A DNA stretch of 43,822 nucleotides from Gemmatimonadaceae bacterium (lineage in GTDB: Bacteria > Gemmatimonadota > Gemmatimonadetes > Gemmatimonadales > Gemmatimonadaceae), in assembly GCA_025930755.1 (NCBI GenBank), contig JAICOJ010000020.1:1-43822 (forward strand), written 5' to 3'. A program made the translations under genes and the position numbers. How positions within the stretch are numbered: the first letter of the stretch is position 1; every line of letters starts with the position of its first letter. The notes beneath the pieces are model-generated. The model had not been told where the DNA came from, made no database searches, and worked only from the letters and a program-made list of their open reading frames with translations. This document shows positions 1-40,415 of the stretch, piece by piece.

Positions 1-110
1 CGGCGGCGCTTTCGCGCCGCCGTTTGCTCATCTGATGAGGCGCCTGCGGCGAAGCCGCGGCGCCTTTTCCGTCCCTGACCCCTGACTCCTGACTCCTGAC
101 CCCTGACTCC
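1..110. repeat. Nested heptad/two-hairpin element, copy 1 (left part cut by window edge)
   Basis: The element runs off the left edge. Seen: hairpin 1 at 1-22 (9-bp GC stem, TTTC loop); the near-palindrome CTCATCTGATGAG at 27-39; hairpin 2 at 39-64 (6-bp lower stem, one bulged T, 5-bp upper stem, GAA loop). A right arm follows with five tandem heptads of the form CCTGAC[CT] at 74-108. The arm runs into the stop codon of the minus-strand M14 peptidase gene (110-112). The left arm should lie just outside the window. It has the same orientation as the 24711 copy and is inverted relative to the 36545 copy. Confidence 0.85.
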
Positions 111-2935: not shown

Positions 2936-3012
2936 GGGTGGGGCGTGAGATGTTTGGGTGTTGGACTTGGCGCAGATACTACAGAAGGGAGTCCAATCCG
3001 CAACGAGCTTGG

Positions 3013-3103
3013 TGCTGACCACAGAGGCACAGAGGCACGGAGGACGGCAACCGCGCAAGAGCAGTTTGCCGTCCTCCGTGCCTCTGTGCCTCTGTGGTCA
3101 GCA
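3013..3103. repeat. 38-bp perfect inverted repeat with octamer units
   Basis: Arms 3013-3050 and 3066-3103 are perfectly complementary over 38 bp around a 15-nt spacer. The arm contains tandem octamers (CACAGAGG CACAGAGG). It lies between the co-directional kup (stop at 3200) and M14 (start at 2935) genes, downstream of kup on the minus strand. RNA from either strand would form a very stable hairpin, but no T-run follows, so it is not a canonical intrinsic terminator. It belongs to the same structural class as the heptad inverted repeats elsewhere in the window. Confidence 0.9.
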
Positions 3104-3199
3104 CTAAAGCACGTTGCATGAGAGGTCGCGAGCATGATCGGCCTAAGCTCGACCCAGGATCTTCGCCACGCGAGTCCCGCGCGTCCGGTTCTTACGAAA

Positions 3200-16788: not shown

Positions 16789-16877
16789 ACGAACTACGAG
16801 CTGCGAACTGCGAACTTCGAACTGCGAAGACGGCAGGGCGTTCGTAGTTCGCAGTTCGCAGTTCGCAGTTCGCAGTT
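16789..16877. repeat. Heptad inverted repeat (CTGCGAA type) between convergent genes
   Basis: Left arm 16789-16828 is built from variants of GAACTGC (GAACTAC, GAGCTGC, GAACTGC, GAACTTC, GAACTGC). Right arm 16841-16877 carries the complementary TTCGCAG heptads. Pairing is imperfect but extended, around a 12-nt spacer. It fills the gap between the convergent histidine-kinase stop (16780) and FAD-subunit stop (16898). Confidence 0.85.
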
Positions 16878-17896: not shown

Positions 17897-20415
17897 CAGG
17901 GCTGCTTCCGTGGCGCGGCCCCGGCCGCCGCTGTCGTCTCACCCGCCTGCTCCACCGGCCCACCCACTTCGCTGTGAGCGCGGCCGTCTTCCTCGCGACC
18001 GGTGCCGCCCTGCGCGGGTGTTCGGACGTGAGCGACGTCCGGGAACGCGTAGCTCGGCAGGGCCGTCGGACCGAAGCGGCCGGCGTTGCCCTTCATCTTG
18101 TCCTTGAGCGCCTTCAGGACCTTGTGCGGCGAGCAGGGAATCTCGTCGATTCGCACGCCAACCGCGTCGTAGATGGCGTTCGCGACCGCGGGCATCACCG
18201 GCAGCAGCGGGCCCTGCCCGGCTTCCTTGGCGCCGAACGGCCCACTCGGATCGGGATCGTGGACCAGAATCGTCTCGACGTCGCACATCTCGAACGTCGT
18301 CGGACTCTTGTACTCCAGCATGCTCGGATGGTGGTGCACGACGTTCCGCACGCGGTCGCGATAGGTCATCTCCTCCATGAGCGCTTCGCCCAGGCCCATG
18401 TACACCGAGCCCTCGACCTGCCCGATCACGAGCAGCGGATTGATGGACTGGCCGACGTCGTGCGCGATCCAGATCTTCGGCACTCTCACTATTCCCGTGT
18501 CGGGGTCGACCTCGACCTCGGCGACCGCGGCCGTGTACGAGTAGGCCGGTGAGGGTCCGACCCCCGCGCCTTTGTATCTGCCTGGCGAGCGAGGCGGCGT
18601 GTACGATCCCGTCGTCCCGACCGTGCCGAACATCCCCTCGGCAATCTGCACCGCTTCGGCGAACGTCACCCCGCGGTCGGGCGACTCCGTATCGAAGACC
18701 CGCCGTTCCGCGAACACCAATCGCGACTTCGGCACGTTGAGCTTCCGCGATACGCCGTCGGCCAGGATCTCGCGCGCACGCTCCGCGGCCTGCACGGCGG
18801 CGTTTCCCGTCATGAGGGTGACGCGCGATGAATAAGACCCGAGGTCGACCGGGGTGAGGTCGGTGTCGCCGGTGACGATGCGGATGTCCTCCGGCTCGAT
18901 GCCTAACACGTCGGCGACGCAGTAGGCAAGTACGGAGTCCGAGCCCTGCCCGATGTCGGTGGAGCCACAGAACGCGGCGACGCCACCGGAGCGGTCGAGC
19001 TTGAGCTGCACGCCGGAGTGCGGCATGCTGTTCCAATAGATCGGCAGCCCCGCTCCGGAGATGTAGGACGAGCACGCCAGCCCGACCCCCCGCCCGAACG
19101 GCAGCTGGCGGTACTTCGTCTGCCAACCGCTGCGCTCGACGACCGCGTCGATGCACTCGCCGAGGCCCATCGAGCCGATGCGAAGCCAGTTCGCGGTGAC
19201 GGAGTTCGCGGGCTGCAGGATGCGTTTGCGCAGCACCGCAGGATCGATCGCGAGATCCTCGGCGATCTTGTCGAGCTGACACTCGAGCGCAAAGCGCGGT
19301 TGCGGCGTCCCGTGGCCGCGTTTGGGGCCGCACGGCGCCTTGTTCGTGAAGACGCGAGCGCCGCGAAAGCGATAATGCGGCACCTCGTACGTCACGGTCT
19401 GCAGCGCACCGGTGTAGTAGGTGCTGGCGACGCCGTACGAGCCGTAGGCGCCGCCGTCGAGAAACGAGGTGAAGTCCATCGCCACGATGCGGCCGTCACG
19501 CGTGACCCCCGTCTTGATGCGCATGAGCGTCGGATGCCGCCCACGATGGCAGTAGAAGACTTCTTCGCGCGTGAGCGAGATCTTGACCGGCCGGCCAGTG
19601 CGGCGCGCGAACGCGGCGACGACGATCTCGTGGTTGAACGGATCGGACTTTCCGCCGAAGCCGCCGCCGTTGGGTGTGGCGATGACGCGAACGTGCGCGG
19701 CGGGCATCTCGAGCACCTTCGCCAGCGCGCGGTGCAAATAGTGTGGCGTCTGCGTGCTCGACCAGACCGTCACCTTCCCATCGGGCGACCACTGCGCGAG
19801 CGACGCGTGCTGCTCCATCGGCAGGTGCGTGTTCCCCTCGAAGAAAAACAGGTCCTCGCGCACGTGGTCCGCCGTCGCCATTTCGGCGTCGACGTTCCCG
19901 AACTCCAGGGCGATGTGCTTGTGCACGTTGCCAGCGTCGCCGTAGTCATGGATGTGCGCGTCCGGCGTGTCGACGCTGGCCAACGCATCCTCCACCGACT
20001 CGATGGGCGGCAGCTTCTCGTATTCCACCTCGATGAGATCGCACGCGTCGGCGGCGGTGTCTTCGTCGATCGCGGCGACGGCGGCGACGGGATCACCGAC
20101 GAATCGTACGTGGTCGGGACAGAGCGCGTGCTCGTCCTGCGAGATGGGCAGAATTCCGAACGGAATCGGCAGATCGCGCCCGGTGAGCACGGCGACGACG
20201 CCCGGGTGACGCTCGGCGCGTGATGTATCGATGCGGACGATGCGCGCGTGCGGCTCCCGAGAGCGCAGCAACTTGCACCACAGCATGCGCGGCAGTGAAA
20301 GGTCGTCGGCGAATTTGGTCTCGCCCGTCACCTTGGCGGTGGCGTCGACCTTCCGGCGCGCGGTGCCGACGACTGACTGCGGACTGCGAACTGCGAACGG
20401 CGAACGATCAGTCAT
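17896..20415 (-). CDS. Molybdopterin-binding catalytic subunit, xanthine dehydrogenase family, 839 aa
   Basis: Large Mo-cofactor subunit: VDATAKVTGETKFADDLSLP at the N-terminus, the GGGFGGKSD loop, FCGSTDIGQGSDSVLAY and the C-terminal GPFGAKEAGQGPL, whose Glu is the conserved active-site base. It should act with the FAD and 2Fe-2S subunits encoded on either side (order Fe-S, Mo, FAD). The first 16 residues (MTDRSPFAVRSPQSVV) are translated from a heptad inverted repeat lying across this start, so the true ancestral start may have been nearer VVGTARRKVD. The C-terminal 50 residues are low-complexity. Context with the HcrB-like subunit favours a CoA-ester reductase or hydroxylase, but substrate is unproven. 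Confidence 0.9.
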   Translation of the reverse strand: MTDRSPFAVRSPQSVVGTARRKVDATAKVTGETKFADDLSLPRMLWCKLLRSREPHARIVRIDTSRAERHPGVVAVLTGRDLPIPFGILPISQDEHALCPDHVRFVGDPVAAVAAIDEDTAADACDLIEVEYEKLPPIESVEDALASVDTPDAHIHDYGDAGNVHKHIALEFGNVDAEMATADHVREDLFFFEGNTHLPMEQHASLAQWSPDGKVTVWSSTQTPHYLHRALAKVLEMPAAHVRVIATPNGGGFGGKSDPFNHEIVVAAFARRTGRPVKISLTREEVFYCHRGRHPTLMRIKTGVTRDGRIVAMDFTSFLDGGAYGSYGVASTYYTGALQTVTYEVPHYRFRGARVFTNKAPCGPKRGHGTPQPRFALECQLDKIAEDLAIDPAVLRKRILQPANSVTANWLRIGSMGLGECIDAVVERSGWQTKYRQLPFGRGVGLACSSYISGAGLPIYWNSMPHSGVQLKLDRSGGVAAFCGSTDIGQGSDSVLAYCVADVLGIEPEDIRIVTGDTDLTPVDLGSYSSRVTLMTGNAAVQAAERAREILADGVSRKLNVPKSRLVFAERRVFDTESPDRGVTFAEAVQIAEGMFGTVGTTGSYTPPRSPGRYKGAGVGPSPAYSYTAAVAEVEVDPDTGIVRVPKIWIAHDVGQSINPLLVIGQVEGSVYMGLGEALMEEMTYRDRVRNVVHHHPSMLEYKSPTTFEMCDVETILVHDPDPSGPFGAKEAGQGPLLPVMPAVANAIYDAVGVRIDEIPCSPHKVLKALKDKMKGNAGRFGPTALPSYAFPDVAHVRTPAQGGTGREEDGRAHSEVGGPVEQAGETTAAAGAAPRKQP

Positions 20416-20467
20416 TGCCGTTCGCCGTGTTGGCAGGTGGCAGCTCGCGGTTCGCAGTTCGCAGTTG
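20374..20467. repeat. Heptad inverted repeat lying inside two overlapping genes
   Basis: Left arm about 20374-20406 and right arm about 20418-20467 contain CTGCGAA/TTCGCAG heptads and pair with interruptions. Unlike the other copies it is translated. It encodes the C-terminal tail of the 2Fe-2S subunit (LRTANRELPPANTANGND) and, in another frame, the N-terminus of the Mo subunit (PFAVRSPQSV). The two reading frames overlap by 8 nt within it. Confidence 0.8.
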
Positions 20468-22563: not shown

Positions 22564-24711
22564 ATGGCGCGCGCGCCGCTGGCGTTTCTCGTGCTGGTGC
22601 TGGGCGATCGTCATGTGCTCAAGAGCACGTGGGGACTTCCGGCCGCGCCGCCGCCCCGCACGGATTTCCCCGCCACCGAATCGCCCTTCGGGTTCATCCT
22701 CGCGCACACGGCGCCGCGGGTCGTCAACGATTCGTGGGACCACGAGGTGCTCCGCGCGCTGCCGATCCTGTCGGCCCTCGGCGTGCGCTCCTACCTCACG
22801 ACGCCGCTCGCCGTCGGCGACACGATGATCGGCGCCCTGGTGGTTCTCGACCACGCGCCCCGCTCCTGGTCGGAGAAGGAGATCGCGCAGATGGACGACG
22901 TGGCGGCGCTCGTCACGACGGAGATGGAGCTGCGTCGCGAGCGATTCGGCCATGAGCGTGCCGTCGCGGAGCACCGCGAGAGTGAGAGTCTGCTTCGCGG
23001 CGTCATCGAGAGCACCGCACTCGCTGTCGCGGTGAAGGACCTCGACGGTCGATATCGAATGATCAACGAAGCGGGGGCCGCCATCCTCGGCTGGGGCGCG
23101 AACGAGATCATTGGCAAGCTGGATCTCGATCTGGTCGATGCCGATCTCGCGCAGCGCATTCGCGATCGCGACCGCGACATTCTCATGGCCGGTGGCGTGC
23201 TGCTCTCGGAGGACGATGCGCCGGGCGCGCCGCACGGCGTGCGATCGTCGACGACCGTCTTCAAGAATGCCGAAGGCGATGCGGCCGGTCTCATCAGCAT
23301 CTCGCGCGTCATCACCGAACGGCAGCGAGCGGAGGAGGCGCTGCGCCTCCTCCACTCGATCGTCGCACGCATCGCCGAGGCGGAAGACTTCTCGAGCGCG
23401 CTGCATCTGGCGCTGTGGCACGTGTGTGACGTCACCGGCTGGGTGTTCGGCGAAGTGTGGATGCCCACCGCCGATGGGCGCTCGCTGGAACGCTCGGACA
23501 TCCGGCACAGCGTGCGCGCGGACTTGCTGGCCCGCGACGTGGCTCATGTCACGCCGCTCCCCCCCGGTGAGGGCCTCGCCGGCCGCGCGTGGTCGAGCAA
23601 GCAGGCGGTGTGGGTGCCCAACGTGGAGGAAGAGCAGGCATTCGCGCAGGCGGGCCATGCCACGGCCCTCGGGCTGAAATCGGGCGTGGCCATCCCCGTG
23701 CTTGCCGCCGACGAGGCCGTCGCGGTGCTCGTGTTCTACATGTTCGAGGTCCGCGAGCAGGATGAGCGCCTCGTGCATCTCATCTCGGTGGTGAGCGCGC
23801 AGCTGGGCGCGTTCATTCGGCGCAAGCGCGCCGAGGATGCGCTCCGGCACAGCGAGGAGAATGCACGCCGCCTGATCGAGAACCTCAATGACGTCATCAT
23901 GGTCCTCGACGCCGAGGGGCGGCTCACGTACGTGAGCCCTTCGGTCGAGCGCATCCTTGGCCGGAGTCCGGACGAGGAGCTGGGGCGATCGATCCTGGAC
24001 TTCGTTCACACCGACGAAGTGGCACGCGCACAGGACATGATCGCCGACACGCTGGGCGCTCCGGGCTTTTCGCGCTCGATAGAGATCCGGGTGCAACACC
24101 GGAACGGGCACTGGCGCTACATGGAGGTCGTCGGCAACGCCGTGCTCGATCAGCATGGGGTGGCGACGATCATCGTCAACGCGCGCGACCTCACCGAGCG
24201 GCAGCGCCTTCAGGCCGAGCTTCGCCGGATGTCGGTGACCGATGATCTCACGGGCCTCAACAACCGCCGCGGCTTCTTCATGCTCGCCGAGCAGGAGATG
24301 AAGCTCGCCAGGCGGCTGAAGAAGGACCTGTTGCTGGTGTTCGTCGATCTCGACGACTTCAAGTCCATCAACGACACCCACGGTCACCAGGTGGGTGACC
24401 AGGCGCTGGCGGAGACGGCGGAGATTCTCCGCACGACCTTCCGCGAATCCGACGTGCTCGCGCGCCTGGGCGGCGACGAGTTCGTGGCGCTGGCGATGTT
24501 CTCGCCCGACGAGACGGACGATGTGATCGAGACGCGCCTGCATCAGACGCTGGCCGAGCACAATGCGCGCTCGTCGCGCAAGTATGCGCTGTCGATCAGC
24601 ACGGGCATGGCCCGGTTCGACGCGCGGAACGTGCAGTCGCTCGCCGAGCTCATGGCGATCGCGGATGACGCGCTCTATGAGCAGAAGAGGGCGAGGAAGA
24701 CGAGGAGCTAG
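22564..24711 (+). CDS. Diguanylate cyclase with GAF-PAS-GAF-PAS-GGDEF domains, at least 715 aa
   Basis: Domains in order: partial GAF (1-115), PAS (about 135-250), GAF (about 260-420), PAS (about 425-545) and GGDEF (about 550-710). The active-site motif GGDEF is intact (residues 636-640) and is preceded at the right distance by RESD, a product-binding I-site, so it should make c-di-GMP with feedback inhibition. The DDLTGLNNRRGFF start of the domain is typical. The ATG at 22564 falls inside the first GAF: in-frame codons upstream encode FDRCARVAAAM, which looks like the missing GAF helix, back to a stop at 22366, yet no ATG, GTG, TTG or CTG exists there. The true start is therefore uncertain. 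Confidence 0.88.
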   Translation: MARAPLAFLVLVLGDRHVLKSTWGLPAAPPPRTDFPATESPFGFILAHTAPRVVNDSWDHEVLRALPILSALGVRSYLTTPLAVGDTMIGALVVLDHAPRSWSEKEIAQMDDVAALVTTEMELRRERFGHERAVAEHRESESLLRGVIESTALAVAVKDLDGRYRMINEAGAAILGWGANEIIGKLDLDLVDADLAQRIRDRDRDILMAGGVLLSEDDAPGAPHGVRSSTTVFKNAEGDAAGLISISRVITERQRAEEALRLLHSIVARIAEAEDFSSALHLALWHVCDVTGWVFGEVWMPTADGRSLERSDIRHSVRADLLARDVAHVTPLPPGEGLAGRAWSSKQAVWVPNVEEEQAFAQAGHATALGLKSGVAIPVLAADEAVAVLVFYMFEVREQDERLVHLISVVSAQLGAFIRRKRAEDALRHSEENARRLIENLNDVIMVLDAEGRLTYVSPSVERILGRSPDEELGRSILDFVHTDEVARAQDMIADTLGAPGFSRSIEIRVQHRNGHWRYMEVVGNAVLDQHGVATIIVNARDLTERQRLQAELRRMSVTDDLTGLNNRRGFFMLAEQEMKLARRLKKDLLLVFVDLDDFKSINDTHGHQVGDQALAETAEILRTTFRESDVLARLGGDEFVALAMFSPDETDDVIETRLHQTLAEHNARSSRKYALSISTGMARFDARNVQSLAELMAIADDALYEQKRARKTRS

Positions 24712-24847
24712 GGGTCAGGAGTCAGGAGTCAGGAGTCAGGGGTGGAAAGGCGAACGGCAGCGCACAGCGCTGCCGTTCGCTCATCTGATGAGGCGGCAGC
24801 CGCGGAGCGGCGGCGCCCTTTCCACCCCTGATCCCTGACCCCTGACC
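24711..24847. repeat. Nested heptad/two-hairpin element, copy 2
   Basis: Left arm 24711-24750 (TCAGGAG heptads then GGTGGAAAGG) pairs with right arm 24817-24847 with few mismatches. Inside are hairpin 1 at 24750-24780 (13-bp perfect stem, 5-nt loop), the linker CTCATCTGATGAG at 24780-24792, and hairpin 2 at about 24791-24816 (one lower-stem mismatch, bulged A, 5-bp upper stem, GGA loop). The arm starts on the last base of the diguanylate-cyclase stop codon and ends 14 bp before the stop of the converging tldE gene. Confidence 0.9.
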
Positions 24848-24860
24848 ACTAGCTCCTACC

Positions 24861-26225
24861 TCACACCGCGTCAGAAAGGGAAGTGAAATTCCAATCGCGG
24901 ACACGCAGCGACGGCACCACTCGCCCTGCCTCGACCCTCTCTGCCCGCCCCAGCTCCTCGATCTTGTTCAGCATGAACAGCGGGCTCTCGTTCCACCGAA
25001 AGTTCTTGAGCGGGCGCGTGATCTTGCCGTTCTCGATCAGGAAGGTGCCGTCGCGAGTGAGGCCGGTCACCATCACCGTGCGCTGATCGAGGAAGCGGAT
25101 GTACCAGAAGCGCGTCACGAGAATCCCGCGCTGCGTGCCCGCGACGAGCTCGTCGACGCTCTTCGTGCCACCCATCATCTTCAGACCTCCGGGCATTCCG
25201 CCGCCGCCGCCTCCTCCTCCTCCACCGCCGCCACCACCACCGGTCGGCTGCACCCCCTTCTTGTCGGCCCAGAAACGCGAATACGCGAGATTCTTGAGGA
25301 CCCCATTCTCGATCCACGTGATCCGCCGCAGCGGGAGTCCCTCGTTGTCGAAGGGGCGCATCAGGAGGTCCCGGTCGGCCGGATCCGAATAGATCGTTAC
25401 GCGCTCGTCGGCGATCTTCTCCCCCAGCTTCGTGCCGCCCGGTTTCGCGAAGGCGCTGCGACCTTCGTCGGTGCTGCGGGCGTTGAACGAGCCCGCGAGC
25501 AGCGGCAGCACGTCCGACACGGCCTGCGGCTCGAGCACTACCGTGTACATCCCGGGCTCGATCGCCTGCGGGTTACGCGACGCCAGCGCCTTGTCCGCCG
25601 CTCGTCGCCCGAGCGACGCGGCATTGATGTCTCCCCAGTTGCGTGAGCCGGCGACCGCATACCCAGAACCCGTTCCATCCGGTGTACGAGCCGTCGTCGA
25701 CATCGAGGCGTCGGTGCTCGCGTGATACGCGAACAGCCCCGAGTTCGTGGCGACCGCGCTCGCTCCGGCGTTGGCTTCGATGAACCCGGCGATCGCCAGC
25801 CGATTGGTGCGCGCCTGCTCGGCGTCGATCACCTGCTGAGCGGCGAGGGCTCGCGCTTCGGGTCCAAGGTCGGCGGTGCGCTCGACGAAGGCGTCGACCG
25901 ACGCGTGCTGCGTAGGCCCGAGCTCGGGCATGATCTCGGGATCTTCCGGCGCCAGGCGCGCCAGCCGCTCGGACAGCTCGACCGTTCGTTTGAGCGATGC
26001 GTCGTCGAGAATGTTCGTCGACGCCGATGCGCGCCGCCGACCGATCGTGCTGGTGATGGTGACGTCGGTGTCGGTGACGCCGCCGGCCGTGGTGATCTCG
26101 CTCGCCGCGAAGCGCGTGTTACCGCTCCAGCCGGACCCCACGGTGACGCGGGTCTGTTCGGCGGTCGCGAAGGAGAGGACGCGTTGCGTCAGCGCTCGGG
26201 CTTCATCGCGTGAGAGTATGGCCAT
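24861..26225 (-). CDS. tldE: TldE/PmbA-family metalloprotease partner subunit, 454 aa
   Basis: TldD/PmbA family protein without the HExxxH motif, as expected for the non-catalytic TldE partner. Typical segments: NTRFAASEITTAGGVTDTDV near the N-terminus, PGMYTVVLEPQAVSDVLPLLAGSFNAR in the middle, and GTFLIENGKITRPLKNFRWNESP near the C-terminus. No signal peptide is visible, whereas its upstream partner has a Tat signal. A run of 15 Gly (about residue 327, from a CCG/CCT/CCA repeat tract) interrupts the C-terminal domain. It is the last gene of the co-directional sigma-TolC-MacA-TldD locus. TldD/TldE heterodimers degrade or trim unfolded and modified peptides. Confidence 0.88.
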   Translation of the reverse strand: MAILSRDEARALTQRVLSFATAEQTRVTVGSGWSGNTRFAASEITTAGGVTDTDVTITSTIGRRRASASTNILDDASLKRTVELSERLARLAPEDPEIMPELGPTQHASVDAFVERTADLGPEARALAAQQVIDAEQARTNRLAIAGFIEANAGASAVATNSGLFAYHASTDASMSTTARTPDGTGSGYAVAGSRNWGDINAASLGRRAADKALASRNPQAIEPGMYTVVLEPQAVSDVLPLLAGSFNARSTDEGRSAFAKPGGTKLGEKIADERVTIYSDPADRDLLMRPFDNEGLPLRRITWIENGVLKNLAYSRFWADKKGVQPTGGGGGGGGGGGGGGGMPGGLKMMGGTKSVDELVAGTQRGILVTRFWYIRFLDQRTVMVTGLTRDGTFLIENGKITRPLKNFRWNESPLFMLNKIEELGRAERVEAGRVVPSLRVRDWNFTSLSDAV

Positions 26226-26235
26226 GGCTCGAATA

Positions 26236-26361
26236 GGGGTCAGGAGTCAGGAGTCAGGGGTCAGGGGGTGTCAGGGTGGGGGGTAGAGGGAAGCGGCACG
26301 CGCGACTTCTGAAACCGAATCCCTGACACCCCCTGATCCCTGACTCCTGACTCCTGACCCC
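26236..26361. repeat. Heptad inverted repeat (TCAGGAG type) between tldD and tldE
   Basis: Arms 26236-26276 and 26321-26361 (41 bp each) are complementary with a single G-to-A difference that would still pair as G-U in one transcript. The 44-nt interior lacks the CTCATC-W-GATGAG two-hairpin module found in the three related elements. The right arm ends 6 bp before the tldD stop codon. The plus strand carries four G-tracts at 26257-26290 that fit a G-quadruplex pattern. Confidence 0.9.
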
Positions 26362-26367
26362 TCGTTG

Positions 26368-30960: not shown

Positions 30961-31054
30961 CGACTGCGAACTGCGAACTGCGAACTGCGAACTGCGAACT
31001 GCGAAGACTGCGCGTGCTGTGTTCGCAGTTCGCAGCTCGCAGTTCGCAGTTCGG
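30961..31054. repeat. Heptad inverted repeat (CTGCGAA type) between tolC and macA genes
   Basis: The left arm (30963-31007) contains six consecutive near-perfect ACTGCGA heptads. The right arm (31021-31054) contains five complementary heptads with one C/T variant. The spacer is about 13 nt. The right arm ends 2 bp before the TolC stop codon (31057-31059), and the left arm starts about 10 bp before the MacA start, so the element occupies nearly the whole intergenic gap inside an apparent operon. Confidence 0.9.
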
Positions 31055-34401: not shown

Positions 34402-34433
34402 GGGCGGGGATTGGCAAGGAAGGAAGGCAAAGG

Positions 34434-34513
34434 CGTCAGATGTCAGAATACAGAATTCAGAAGGTTGTCGGTCTGAATTCTGTATTCTGTATTCTGTATT
34501 CTGACATCTGACG
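34434..34513. repeat. Heptad inverted repeat (CTGTATT type) with unequal arms
   Basis: Left arm 34434-34460 and right arm 34473-34513 are complementary. The right arm has two extra ACAGAAT heptads (as read on the opposite strand), so the arms differ by exactly 14 bp. Flanking GAAGGCA/TGCCTTC sequences extend the pairing outward to about 34424-34522. It ends at the stop codon of the minus-strand gene at 34523. Unlike other copies it is AT-rich, in a high-GC region. Confidence 0.9.
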
Positions 34514-34522
34514 TCTCTGCCT

Positions 34523-35131
34523 TCAGTGTGAAGCATGAAGGTAGACCACACTCCATCGCGAGGGGAGATCGCGCCCGCCCAATAGCTCGGTCGTCGCTGG
34601 GTCCACGCCGTATCGACCGAGCCAGCCTTGCAGATGCACCCGCGCCTCCGCTGGCGTGCAGCTGCGAGGCTCACCCGCCGCACCGAGCACAATGCGATCC
34701 GTGACCATCGTGATCACGTCGGCTGCACGCCCACCGCGGAACGCCACGCCCACGAAATGCACCGGCTTTTCCCGAGCGGCGAAGCCGATGACGGTGACGC
34801 GTCGAGAAAGTGCGCGCGCGAGCACGCTCAACGCTGGGGGAAGTGCCATCTCCATCCGCGCCGCCGCGGGCAGCCCTGAGGCGAGCTCGAGCGCGGCGCC
34901 CCAGGGCGTCGCATCGCTGTAACCGCTCCACTCGCGGATCATGCTCAGCGCGGGCTGAACGAGATCGACGTCGAAGAAGCGCGCTTCGCTGCGCTCGGTG
35001 GGCTCTGTCGGAATCGGCCGCGCTGGTTCCGCGCGCTCGAACCCTCGTTCGGCGAGCACCTCATCGAGGGCCCGTTCCGCCTCCGCGGCGGGGAGTGCCA
35101 CGAGGAGTGCCTCACGCGTTCTGGTCGCCAT
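34523..35131 (-). CDS. Unrecognised protein, 202 aa
   Basis: I do not recognise a family. The protein has no signal peptide or membrane helix. It begins with an Ala/Glu/Arg-rich helix (TREALLVALPAAEAERALDEVLAERGFERAEP), has an alternating beta/alpha pattern in the middle (RRVTVIGFAAREKPVHFVGVAFRGGRAADVITMVTDRIVLG) and ends in RWSVVYLHASH. Codon use is like its neighbours and the ORF fills the space between a heptad repeat and a divergent lipoprotein gene, so it is probably real. Confidence 0.7.
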   Translation of the reverse strand: MATRTREALLVALPAAEAERALDEVLAERGFERAEPARPIPTEPTERSEARFFDVDLVQPALSMIREWSGYSDATPWGAALELASGLPAAARMEMALPPALSVLARALSRRVTVIGFAAREKPVHFVGVAFRGGRAADVITMVTDRIVLGAAGEPRSCTPAEARVHLQGWLGRYGVDPATTELLGGRDLPSRWSVVYLHASH

Positions 35132-35743: not shown

Positions 35744-36541
35744 ATGCGGAGCTCATTCGCGCTGCTCGCGGCGATTCTCGTCGTCGCGGGATGCACGTCG
35801 GTCGATACCACCGAGCATTGCGTGCTCACGCGGTATGGGAGGATCATCGAGCCGCGCATGAGCACGGGCTTGAACTTCACGCCTCTGGCCAAGGCGACCT
35901 GCTTCTCGATGACCGACAAGAACTTCCCCGATCAGGGTGGAAAGGAGACGATGGAAGCGCAGACGCGCGATCCCATCACCGTCGTCGGCGACGTCGGCAT
36001 CGTGTACTCGTACGATCCGGCGACGATTCTCCAGCTGTTCGAGGACAAGCGCACGCCGGAAGCGGCGGAGGCCGAGATCCTCAACGCGGTGCGCGAAGGC
36101 TATCGCAACGCGCTCGCGAGCTGGACCGTCTCACAAATCTTCTCGGCCGACCGCGCGTCGCTGTCCGATTCCGTTCGCTCGCACATCCAGCGCAAGCTCG
36201 GCGGGCGCGCGATCGTGAAGCAGGTGTTCGTGCGCGACATCAAGGCACCGGCCGCGATCGAGGCGGCGCGTATCGAAGCGGCGAAGCAGGCGCAGGTCCT
36301 CGACCGCGCGATCAAGCAGTTCCAGATCGATTCGGTCAACGCGCGGGCCACGGTCATCGGCGCCGAGGCACAAGCGACCTCGAAGCGGCTCGAGGCCCAG
36401 GCGTACTCGCAGAACCGTGAGCTGTTGCAGCTGCGAATCGCCGAGGCGCAGGCGAAGGGGCTGGCCGAGGCGTGCAAGGGAGTGACGACGTGCGTGATTG
36501 GCGGGTCGGTCATCGACTCGTGGAAGTCCCCGCGCGAGTGA
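35744..36541 (+). CDS. SPFH/band-7 (prohibitin-like) lipoprotein, 265 aa
   Basis: The ATG at 35744 has GAGGTAGGA upstream. The lipobox is VAGC (Cys17). The following domain matches band 7: EHCVLTRYGRIIEPRMSTGLNF, RDPITVVGDVGIVYSYDPATI and a long Ala/Glu/Arg-rich coiled coil (AAIEAARIEAAKQAQVLDRAI and onward) before a short C-terminus. SPFH proteins usually have an N-terminal transmembrane helix and form ring scaffolds that hold proteases. Here a lipid anchor replaces the helix, putting the domain in the periplasm or on the outer membrane. Confidence 0.88.
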   Translation: MRSSFALLAAILVVAGCTSVDTTEHCVLTRYGRIIEPRMSTGLNFTPLAKATCFSMTDKNFPDQGGKETMEAQTRDPITVVGDVGIVYSYDPATILQLFEDKRTPEAAEAEILNAVREGYRNALASWTVSQIFSADRASLSDSVRSHIQRKLGGRAIVKQVFVRDIKAPAAIEAARIEAAKQAQVLDRAIKQFQIDSVNARATVIGAEAQATSKRLEAQAYSQNRELLQLRIAEAQAKGLAEACKGVTTCVIGGSVIDSWKSPRE

Positions 36542-36544
36542 CTG

Positions 36545-36693
36545 GGGGTCAGGAGTCAGGAGTCAGGGATCAGGGGTGGAAAGGCGCGTCGCCGCTTCGC
36601 GGCAGACGCGCTCATCTGATGAGCAAACGGCAGCGCTCTCGCGCTGCCGTTTGCCTTTCCACCCCTGATCCCTGACTCCTGACTCCTGACCCC
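36545..36693. repeat. Nested heptad/two-hairpin element, copy 3 (inverted orientation)
   Basis: Outer arms 36545-36584 and 36654-36693 are perfectly complementary over 40 bp. Inside are a hairpin at 36584-36611 (7-bp lower stem, one bulged base, 5-bp upper stem, TTC loop, read as GAA on the other strand), the linker CTCATCTGATGAG at 36611-36623, and a hairpin at 36623-36654 (14-bp perfect stem, TCTC loop). The hairpin order is reversed relative to copies 1 and 2. The element starts 3 bp after the SPFH stop codon and ends 3 bp before the stop of the converging LVIVD gene. Confidence 0.93.
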
Positions 36694-36696
36694 TAC

Positions 36697-38691
36697 TCAG
36701 GGCACCACCTCCGACTTCGGCTCAATCCGCACGACCCACAACCCGTTATGGTTGTCGTTCACATACGCCAACCCATCCCGATAAATCACTCCCCACACGC
36801 GCGGCGCGTTCGTGACGTGGCCCACGTCGCTCGCGGTGTGGAGGTGCGCGATCTCGCGATCCTGCGCGCGCAGGTCCCCGCGCAGTTCGCCTGAGATGTC
36901 GAAAGCCCGGAAGCCGGCCTCGTACGCGCCCATGTAGAGCGTGTCACCGGCGATCCAGATGTTGTGCACGCCACCGAACTCGGGCTCGTACCACGCCACC
37001 GACTTCGGATTCTTCATGTCGCTGACGTCGATCACCTGCAGGCGGCCATAGGCGCGCTCGGCGGCGACGCCCGTCGCGCCGGCGACGCCGCGCAGCGGGA
37101 ACACCTCGTCGGCGATGAAGACGTAGTCCTTGTGGCGCCAGGCGGTGTGCGTGCCGCGGATGAAGCCGCCGCCGGCAGTCTGTGCGACGTCGCGATAAAG
37201 CTCATCGAGATCGTACTTGTACTGCGTGACCAGCTTCGGGCTCGAGGGCGTGCCGCCGTGCGAGCCGTTGCCGATGTCGAGCACGACCAGACCGTCGTTC
37301 CAATAGCTCAGATACGCGAGGCCGTCACGCACGTCGATGTCGTGGAGCGAGCGTCCTTCGGCAGGGCGTTCCGTCACCCAGCGCGCCACCTCACGAGGCC
37401 TGGCCGGATCGTCGAGGTTCAGGATGTGCAGCTCGGCTGTCCCGTCGTTCGTGAGGAGGAGATGCCGGCCGAAGCGCGGGCTCTCGTAAAAGAAGAGCGA
37501 GTGTACACCCGACGTTACACCCTCCGTGAACTCGGCGATCGGGCGCGGGTGTGCCGGATCGCGATTGTCGCAGATGACGATCCCGTTCCGGCGGTCGGCG
37601 GCGCCCTCGCGCGTGAAGACGAGGACGGAGCCGTCGGCGGTCGTGACGATGTCGTTCACGCGGCGCGTGTTGGCGACGATCGAGTCGGTGACGACGGGCT
37701 TCGCCGGATCGCTGATGTCGATCGCGAACATGACGTCACCGCCCCGGCCGGTGCCGAGGTAGGCGTTCTTGCCGTTCGGGTGGAGCCAGAGCTCCTCGGT
37801 GCGGAAGCGCGCGCGTGGCAGGCGTCCGACGACCGTCACCGGGCGGCGCACATCGCGCTCGCCCAACGTGACACGGGCGCTGCCGCTCTGGTTGCCGAAG
37901 GTCGCGATGACCGTGTACTCGCCCGGCTCGTAGCCGACGAAGGCGCCCGTCTCATCGATGACCCCGTTGCCCGGGGAGACGCTCCACGTCGGCGTGACGC
38001 CGGCGATCGCGCTCCCGCCAGCGGTGCGCGCACTGGCGGTGAAGCGGACGACGTCGCCCTCGCGGGCTTCACGCGCGCTCGCGGTGACGCGCACGGATGC
38101 GACGCGGGCATTCGCGACCTCTACCGGGATCGAGGTGCGCACGTCACCCACCGACGCCGTGATCGTGGCGCGACCTGGGGCGACCGCGGTGACGAGACCC
38201 TCGGCGTCGACGCGCACGATCGCGGGGGCGGAGCTTCGCCAGGTCGGGCGATCGCGTCGCTCGTCGCCGATCGCTGACTGAGTACGTGTGCGAAGCACGA
38301 CCGTCTGACCGATGACCAGGCGGCCCGGCGCATTCAGGATGCTCACCCGAGCAGCCGGTCCGGGCACGACGCGAACGAACACGCGGTCGAGCAGTTGGCG
38401 CTGTCCCTCCCCGAGCCCGATGACGGTGACGGGGATGGTGGTCGGCGCGCCACCGACAACGAGGCCGGTGGAATCGACCCGGCCCTCGAACGATCCACCG
38501 CCGGCGCGGAACACCACGCGAGCGTTCGGCACGACGTTCCCCGCCCGGTCCCGCACTTCGCCGGTGAGGCGAACCGAGTCGCCCACGGCGATCTCGGCGT
38601 TGGCGGGCCTAACGACTATGCGGGCCTCGAGCGGCTCGGCCTGCTGCTGCTGCTGAAGGGACGCGATCAGCAGGAAGGGGAGAACGCTCAC
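36697..38691 (-). CDS. Exported LVIVD-repeat propeller protein with Ig-like domains, 664 aa
   Basis: A GTG start (38691) leads into a short hydrophobic signal (VLPFLLIASL) and a Gln run. Residues about 20-280 hold three Ig-like/Big-2-type domains (EIAVGDSVRLTGEVRDRAGN, VRVDAEGLVTAVAPGRATIT, AREGDVVRFTASARTAGGS). The rest is a propeller with LVIVD-type motifs (VMFAIDISDPAKPVVTDS, LHILNLDDPARPREVARW, GLAYLSYWNDGLVVLDIGN, LQVIDVSDMKNPKSVAWYEP, GLWVVRIEPK). It is probably a periplasmic or surface protein; function is not known. The start lies 5 bp past the stop of the small membrane protein gene, so the two are likely co-translated. Confidence 0.87.
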   Translation of the reverse strand: MSVLPFLLIASLQQQQQAEPLEARIVVRPANAEIAVGDSVRLTGEVRDRAGNVVPNARVVFRAGGGSFEGRVDSTGLVVGGAPTTIPVTVIGLGEGQRQLLDRVFVRVVPGPAARVSILNAPGRLVIGQTVVLRTRTQSAIGDERRDRPTWRSSAPAIVRVDAEGLVTAVAPGRATITASVGDVRTSIPVEVANARVASVRVTASAREAREGDVVRFTASARTAGGSAIAGVTPTWSVSPGNGVIDETGAFVGYEPGEYTVIATFGNQSGSARVTLGERDVRRPVTVVGRLPRARFRTEELWLHPNGKNAYLGTGRGGDVMFAIDISDPAKPVVTDSIVANTRRVNDIVTTADGSVLVFTREGAADRRNGIVICDNRDPAHPRPIAEFTEGVTSGVHSLFFYESPRFGRHLLLTNDGTAELHILNLDDPARPREVARWVTERPAEGRSLHDIDVRDGLAYLSYWNDGLVVLDIGNGSHGGTPSSPKLVTQYKYDLDELYRDVAQTAGGGFIRGTHTAWRHKDYVFIADEVFPLRGVAGATGVAAERAYGRLQVIDVSDMKNPKSVAWYEPEFGGVHNIWIAGDTLYMGAYEAGFRAFDISGELRGDLRAQDREIAHLHTASDVGHVTNAPRVWGVIYRDGLAYVNDNHNGLWVVRIEPKSEVVP

Positions 38692-38973: not shown

Positions 38974-39031
38974 ACTGCGGACTGCGAACTGCGAGCCACG
39001 AGCCGTTAGTTCGCAGTTCGCAGTCCGCAGT
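38974..39031. repeat. Heptad inverted repeat (CTGCGAA type)
   Basis: Arms 38974-38994 and 39011-39031 are perfectly complementary over 21 bp (three heptads each) with a 16-nt spacer. The right arm ends 6 bp before the cyclophilin stop codon (39038-39040); the left arm is 25 bp upstream of the small membrane protein start. Both flanking genes run on the minus strand. Confidence 0.9.
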
Positions 39032-39499: not shown

Positions 39500-39531
39500 G
39501 CACGGAAGATAGTTGGGAGGCGCTGGGGTTA

Positions 39532-39689
39532 GGAACCGCAGATGGGCGCAAGAAGGCCGCAAATGCACCGGTGCGCCCTTCCAATCCTCCTCGCGAGATG
39601 AAGTTCCCAGGATTCCTTGGTTACACCTATCGAGAATCCGGTCCGCGAGCAGAAGTCTTCCGCGGCCTTCTGCGGCCTTCTGCGGTTCC
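39532..39689. repeat. Decamer-unit inverted repeat with one arm inside nth
   Basis: GGAACCGCAG (39532-39541) and AGAAGGCCGCA (39551-39561) on the left are complementary to CTGCGGTTCC (39680-39689) and TGCGGCCTTCT (39671-39681) on the right. The right arm has two and a half tandem copies of the 10-bp unit GGCCTTCTGC. The spacer (39562-39660) is about 100 nt. The right arm is coding: it supplies part of the C-terminal tail of endonuclease III. Confidence 0.75.
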
Positions 39690-40415
39690 TTTACCGCTTG
39701 CTACGGGGACAACAAGCGATGAAGGGCAGAGATCCCACAGCGGACACTTTTCGCACAGAGGCCGGCGCGCGACGCAGATCGCGCGACCGTGAAAGATCAG
39801 CAGGTGCGAGAACAGCGTCCACTTCTCGCGCGGAACCACCTCGATCAGGTCCTGCTCGATCTTCACCGCGTCGGTCTCCCGGGTGAGACCAAGCCGAAAC
39901 GACACGCGCGTGACGTGCGTGTCCACGACGACTCCCTCGTTCAGCCCGAAGGCGTTGCCCAGGACGACGTTCGCCGTCTTGCGGCCGATGCCGGGGAGGT
40001 GCGTCAGCTCGTCCATCGTGCGCGGGATCTCACCGCGATGCTTGTCGACTACCGCGCGCGCCATGCCGAGCAGGCTCTTCGTCTTGTTCCGGAAGAAGCC
40101 CGTGCTTTTGATGCGATTCTCCAGCTCCTCCGGCTCGGCGCCCGCGAGGGCCGCGGCATTGGGAAAGCGCGCGAACAGGTCGGGCGTCACCATGTTGACG
40201 CGGACGTCCGTGCACTGCGCGGACAGGATGGTGGCGACGACGAGCTCGTATGGGCTCCGGTAGTCGAGCGAGCATTTCGCGTCCGGGTACGTCTCCTCCA
40301 GCCGGCGGATGTACTCCAACGCGACCTCACGACCCACCTGCTTCGGCCGCCTGGGGAGCGCCTTACGAGTGACAAAGGCCGGTGGTGGCGGGGCTGCGCT
40401 CGCGCGCGGGCTCAT
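39627..40415 (-). CDS. nth: Endonuclease III, 262 aa
   Basis: DNA glycosylase/AP lyase of base-excision repair. The helix-hairpin-helix and catalytic Lys ([13 protein letters not shown]), the catalytic Asp in VVDTHVTRV and the [4Fe-4S] motif C-x6-C-x2-C-x5-C ([17 protein letters not shown]) are all present. It extends past the normal end by about 28 residues (from [21 protein letters not shown]), mostly translated from the decamer repeat. The N-terminal 30 residues are Ala/Pro-rich. ATG at 40415 overlaps the polX stop (ATGA), so the two repair genes are translationally coupled. Confidence 0.95.

Follow-up and report, generated by a model that had tools for sequence, protein, structure and literature searches.

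The palindrome at positions 36545-36693 of the window (the whole analysed stretch of 43,822 nt, contig C162 of the 4.27-Mb, 275-contig genome of a Gemmatimonadaceae bacterium, labelled G000) belongs to a dispersed repeat family that has a protein-coding relative, and the few odd palindromes singled out by a first-pass annotation are this family. The copy number, the arms shared with S23 genes, the association of S23 genes with repeat arrays, the placement at 3' ends, the conservation of sites and the fast change that preserves pairing make it somewhat probable, as the best explanation of the data, that this palindrome (the target) is a non-autonomous copy of a class of dispersed S23-associated palindromic elements, tolerated or useful as a 3'-end structure. 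Within this explanation, S23-borne mobility and a terminator function of the palindromes are what we infer.

The target arms (36545-36585 and 36653-36693) are perfectly complementary over 41 nt, with a spacer of 67 nt, and when extended to 36539-36699 they reach 47 nt at 96% pairing, the added outer pairs, TGA/TCA, being the stop codons of two convergent genes. The target fills the gap between the stop codon (TGA, 36539-36541, + strand) of an SPFH/Band 7 gene listed among the open reading frames (35744-36541, +; Pfam Band_7 E 4e-12) and the stop codon (36697-36699, - strand, TCA on the + strand) of a convergent Big_2/LVIVD-repeat gene (36697-38691, -). The 5' arm consists of tandem 7-mers of the type xxxTCAG/GTCAGGA (36545-36577, +) and of the inner arm GTGGAAAGGC (36576-36585, +), which pairs with 36653-36662; the 3' arm (36653-36693, +) is the exact complement of 36545-36585. 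Between the arms the order is GTGGAAAGG, hairpin A, the linker, hairpin B and the complement CCTTTCCAC. Hairpin A (GCGCGTCGCCGC-TTC-GCGGCAGACGCGC, 36584-36611, +) and hairpin B (CAAACGGCAGCGC-TCTC-GCGCTGCCGTTTG, 36624-36653, +) both appear in the computed fold and correspond to helices 2 and 3 of the covariation analysis; the conserved palindromic linker between them, TCATCTGATGAG (36612-36623, +), reads TCATCAGATGAG in most copies. The first-pass description of a long perfect outer palindrome, with an inner region of two hairpins and a palindromic linker, is confirmed in this way, and the predicted fold supports the multi-branched, cruciform-type structure that it proposed; a 67-nt spacer should slow extrusion.

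Folded as RNA, the target has an MFE of -145.1 kcal/mol (z -19.8), and folded as DNA one of -90.1 kcal/mol (z -19.7), with 0 of 200 shuffles equally stable in either case; the top inverted repeat in 36300-37000 scores 41, whereas no score above 15 arose in 300 Markov shuffles of these 700 nt. The Rfam search of the target returned 0 matches at the gathering score; identity as a miRNA hairpin was rejected, the corresponding matches being sub-threshold and a chance product of the long stem, and one sub-threshold sRNA match was also seen. Only CCTTTCC comes after the target hairpins, with no U-tract of an intrinsic terminator, so the case for a terminator function of the core hairpins is weak on sequence grounds.

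Several copies in the window had been reported, and those at 24705-24862, 26235-26362 and 36545-36693 are real, with a partial copy of the target family at the contig start (1-103, -). The first of them is a second complete family copy, in reverse orientation, between the convergent genes 22564-24711 and 24861-26225; the palindrome at 26235-26362, between two PmbA/TldD-like genes, has GTCAGGA-type arms as in the target without the double-hairpin core, and it is missing at the orthologous site of the other genus member analysed (G001). A related palindrome type with the unit ACTGCGA lies between convergent genes at 16792-16877 and recurs at 20383-20465, at 30963-31053 and, as ACTGCGA/ACTGCGG, at 38974-39031. 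Two further types are represented by CAGAATA/CAGAATT (34423-34524), the G001 counterpart of which has shrunk to a 23-nt gap, and by the 8-mer CACAGAGG (3009-3107). Another inverted repeat, GGAACCGCAG...CTGCGGTTCC, occurs at 39531-39690 of the window and at L047 12910-13161, where its position is kept between G000 and G001.

Persistence at many loci, also claimed in the first pass, holds for the genome as a whole: the target family has 82 matches over both strands in G000, in at least 40 places, and 71 matches, representing dozens of copies, in G001. No match was found in 11 other genomes of the same family, a single genome at the order level has two weak arm matches to the target, and the covariance model of the target family matched G000 alone among 149 genomes of the class, a draw to which G001 did not belong. 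In 36 aligned copies, 96.2% of pair cells still pair, and both-sided changes are found in 18 of 39 pairs versus 11.1 in shuffles; in slid controls of the alignment, pairing falls to 42-52%. The switches in both hairpins are mostly GC<->CG or AU<->GC, with half-way states almost absent, these counts being of cells, not of events, and possibly reflecting few founding types. The conserved sequence parts of the copies are the linker and GGAAAGG. The loops of hairpin B occur in two orientations (TTC/GAA and TTT/AAA; alignment A3), which suggests hairpin inversion, and those of hairpin A are never inverted in the same alignment.

Several contigs end inside palindromes (L039 1-403, L042 1-312, L044 1-259, L045 2-299, L052 9912-10271, L074 8917-9298 and window 1-103), and some of them fold back onto their own flank; such ends are an assembly artefact, by which genomes of this kind probably become fragmented. 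The first six of these contigs would also speak for the target being itself a product of draft-genome assembly, an explanation that is nonetheless barely credible, since the target has different genes with complete open reading frames on either side and its orthologous site in an independent genome is structured as well.

Arms of the target type are shared with S23 genes. The 38-nt target arm is identical (38/38; L057 6978-7015) to an arm of an S23-enclosing element of ~520 bp (L057 6982-7504), and a second S23 element of G000 with target-type arms lies at L048 6181-6703, so that inverted tandem 7-9-mer arms are common to the target and to an S23-bearing copy of the same genome. The target copy itself consists of arms without an S23 gene, and in its S23-bearing relatives the gene stands between stem-forming inverted repeats. 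S23 (PF05635/TIGR02436) denotes the four-helix-bundle protein of rRNA intervening sequences (23S-rRNA-IVS type), a relative of Avd; the entries of the two solved S23 relatives, 2gsc and 2rld, contain five chains each, and the Xanthomonas one is described as a homopentamer (PMC4990558); 2gsc is Xanthomonas campestris XCC0516, from a genome with many GGGAATC arrays. S23 genes of G000 taken as cognate to the arrays lie at C145:17066-17380 and C54:53306-53620. Further unit families of G000 with S23-bearing copies are CTGCGAA (two copies), the 9-mers GGCGCTGGA (two) and GGGTCCTCA (one), and CAGAATT (one copy, L076 5955-6464, not included in the 575 kb tally). This tally contains 47 GTCAGGA palindromes, two of them with S23 and 32 with the target core, and 18 CTGCGAA palindromes, two with S23; the S23-bearing copies stand among many S23-less ones in their unit families.

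The association extends over many phyla. One genome was scanned per species, which gave 80 S23 loci; an inverted repeat scoring at least 18 encloses 51 of them, versus 1% of cross-locus flank pairs. Since these 80 loci were the top matches to an alignment centred on Gemmatimonadaceae, they lean to element-like S23 genes, and over S23 genes in general the fractions may be lower. When relatives are added, 104 of 108 S23 genes have a tandem array in either flank and 91 of 108 in both, usually arranged as inverted arms, with a period of 7 in 83 cases, 8 in 13 and 9 in 7, and a median of five units. As controls, both flanks carry arrays in 34 of 298 ordinary small genes of the array-rich G000 and in 4 of 132 pseudo-segments of the 80 loci, and an enclosing inverted repeat was found for 4 of the 298 small genes. 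The more alike two S23 proteins are, the more alike are their arms (Mantel r 0.17, P 0.0005), the mean arm cosine being 0.36 for the closest S23 pairs versus 0.03. Across 21 genomes, the number of YAG-type arrays correlates with the number of S23 genes (rho 0.60, P 0.004), with the exceptions of G014, which has 11 array matches and no S23 match, and of G005 and G013, which are rich in S23 genes and almost without YAG arrays. The unit consensus is YAG in 62 of 104 cases versus 29 expected, i.e., it is enriched, not universal.

One query for S23 on phages found none, and 31 plasmid records carry S23, most of them cyanobacterial. In the type I-D CRISPR locus of the Anabaena sp. 90 plasmid pANA02, an S23 gene and a long CAGGTGA array lie between cas6 and cas4, and a Dolichospermum UHCC 0315A plasmid, with cas genes and flanks ~98-99% identical, has an unrelated palindrome in the cas6-cas4 gap (the two loci are L246 1620-2460 and L249 1200-1480).

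It might be supposed that S23 genes are passengers, captured repeatedly by self-propagating or repair-driven n-mer palindromes, given that S23-less copies are about tenfold more numerous than S23 copies and that, to our knowledge, S23 proteins have no known function and no known catalytic domain or enzyme activity. As a general account this is improbable, because the link between gene and array holds almost without exception in many phyla and because S23 sequences diverge together with those of the arms; some of the S23 genes may still be passengers.

The palindromes have a marked preference for gene ends. In G000 stretches chosen around target-family copies, where a codon-usage script made the gene calls, a palindrome is present in 32 of 68 convergent intergenic regions (47%), versus 41 of 326 tandem (13%) and 8 of 73 divergent ones (11%; P 4e-10 for the orientation bias), and the bias persists when the target family is left out (P 2e-6). 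The median distance of palindrome ends is 6 nt to a stop codon and 43 nt to a start.

A comparison of G000 with G001 (~80-85% identical, palindrome flanks mostly 80-90%) indicates that 27 of 31 palindromic sites are filled in G000 and G001 alike; four are empty in G001, and no target-site duplications were found at these four. The partner sequences contain an n-mer array in 24 of 26 cases, and 17 fold with z below -3. The repeat unit itself differs between the species at most shared sites: CAGAATT of G000 is replaced by ACGTCAG in G001 at four of four shared sites, the orthologous S23 gene site included, and CTGCGAA by GATTGCGG, GGCGCTG or GGGCCA. At the site of the target, G001 has a different palindrome, the right-hand gene is absent, and a canonical terminator is nested in the 7-mer arms (L232 6050-6100), with a 12-bp stem, CTACGGGGAGCC-AGTATC-GGCTCCCCGTAG, and T9 closely after it. 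Two pairs of G000/G001 contigs (L057/L097 and L065/L092) are 99.7-99.8% identical, the rest differing by 15-20%, and are read as cross-binning or recent transfer. In these pairs, the palindromic copies differ at about 10% of positions at least, whole 7-mers included, and these hypervariable copies still fold at -125 to -136 kcal/mol. Sites persist while their arms are rewritten, a pattern that we read as slippage, arm-to-arm copying, inter-copy conversion or replacement, all four of which fit the data; the two cyanobacterial plasmids with different palindromes in the cas6-cas4 gap are a parallel case. Part of the site sharing could stem from insertions that occurred more than once in one and the same short permissive region.

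Placement at convergent 3' ends and beside stop codons, the canonical terminator inside the G001 palindrome at the orthologous site, the sharing of sites across species and the compensatory changes are also what would be expected of 3'-end structures maintained by the host, that is, of bidirectional terminators, mRNA-stability hairpins or insulator hairpins selected at convergent genes, with arms generated by slippage and template-switch correction and with S23 irrelevant to the S23-less copies. We regard this explanation as rather unlikely, since it leaves unexplained the near-universal S23 association, the family-wide species-specific units, the highly similar copies at unrelated loci, and the empty sites in the sister species.

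These data also bear on how such palindromes survive. Recent formation, one of the causes offered in the first-pass annotation, is an improbable cause at most sites, given that two species have 27 of 31 in common. The same annotation named free drift of the arms with loss of complementarity, in a strain comparison, as an outcome that would speak against it; here the outcome is mixed, since the arms do change fast, with units swapped between species, but complementarity is kept. Lack of SbcCD was rejected as a reason for persistence: sbcD-like and sbcC-like genes are adjacent in the genome (C38), the sbcD match passing its curated cut-off, with its neighbours, and the sbcC matches lying below theirs, and the absence of the nuclease therefore does not explain the persistence of the palindromes. 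A class of sites in which position and fold are conserved while the sequence is rewritten is relevant to the survival of palindromes despite SbcCD-like nucleases.

The S23-associated explanation of the target could work as follows. Larger members of the class carry the gene of the four-helix-bundle protein inside arms of the same kind; the S23 protein, a pentamer in crystals, would recognise its own n-mer array when this is folded as single-stranded DNA or as RNA, and would act in trans, helping the family to spread or to convert itself. The arms might stay paired because one is copied from the other, by hairpin template switching, and from other family copies. Copies would survive just past stop codons where a strong two-way hairpin is harmless or useful, possible uses being transcription stop, protection of mRNA 3' ends and insulation of convergent genes. 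A wider proposal, which we put forward tentatively and consider doubtful, is that S23 proteins act in trans on a palindromic class found throughout bacteria, in which the pentameric ring reads about five 7-nt units (often YAGNNNN) and each S23 lineage makes its own n-mer family spread and become homogeneous, this family supplying the 3'-end structures of many genes. Since YAG is not universal, the idea of ring reading stays speculative; if true, trans-acting reading by S23 would explain heptamer repeats long noted in bacteria.

Among known systems, the intervening sequence (IVS) of Coxiella burnetii 23S rRNA is a palindromic stem enclosing an S23 gene and is regarded as a selfish element; its stem is cut in RNA by RNase III, and Coxiella S23p is reported to be apparently not made in vivo (PMC4990558). 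The S23-bearing relatives of the target resemble it in having a palindromic stem around an S23 gene (PF05635/TIGR02436), whereas the elements described here are intergenic and multi-copy, with tandem 7-9-mers as arms, and the gene is missing from most copies, among them the target; the target lies between two protein genes, not in rRNA. MITEs are likewise short, gene-less, dispersed and bounded by inverted repeats, but no duplication was seen at the four empty sites, and Y1_Tnp, the sole transposase family tested, has other termini. We found no paper linking S23 genes to heptamer palindromes in a search that most subscription literature lay outside, nor a description of the pairing of an S23 gene with a short tandem-repeat palindrome over many phyla.

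The REPIN/RAYT system (PMC3116915, PMC3733652) shares with the present elements miniature palindromic extragenic repeats in many copies per genome, few cognate protein genes and a preference for 3' ends and convergent genes, and the S23-associated class may loosely be called its parallel; it differs in that the partner would be the four-helix-bundle S23, not an HUH tyrosine transposase, and in that the arms are tandem arrays. It is quite improbable that the palindromes are themselves miniature elements of the REPIN type, mobilised by an HUH transposase (Y1/RAYT), even though they are extragenic, numerous and built as a REP-like doublet of inverted hairpins and the genome has one Y1_Tnp gene (C64). 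This gene, the sole Y1_Tnp of G000, is single-copy, and in place of copies of the palindrome it is flanked by unrelated 28-bp inverted repeats of its own (L082 6643-7439); Y1_Tnp is absent from G001 and from five array-rich relatives, and the number of YAG-type arrays does not track that of Y1_Tnp genes in the 21 genomes (rho -0.28). By eye, no GTAG/CGTC tag is seen at the bases of the hairpins. RAYT mobilisation was disfavoured on the different termini, the G001 genome without Y1_Tnp and the absent correlation of counts.

The G-rich heptamers GGGAATC of Xanthomonas and GGGGA(C/T)T of Nostoc, typically of four units and in Xanthomonas with many inverted pairs, are also intergenic and closer to the end of the preceding gene; they differ in being linked to G-quadruplexes, generally with no association with mobile elements, and S23 is not mentioned (PMC4692102). 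The TAACTGA heptamers of Beggiatoaceae, Cyanobacteria and Bacteroidetes are intergenic and patchily distributed, and their author speculated that what is mobile may be a protein that binds the repeats; unlike the present arms, they are direct repeats, mostly just upstream of starts, and the candidates named are S1, Csp and CsrA, not S23 (PMC4679880). A tie between the heptamer repeats of Xanthomonas, Nostoc and Beggiatoaceae, which have no known cause, and S23, which has no known function, would give each a testable partner.
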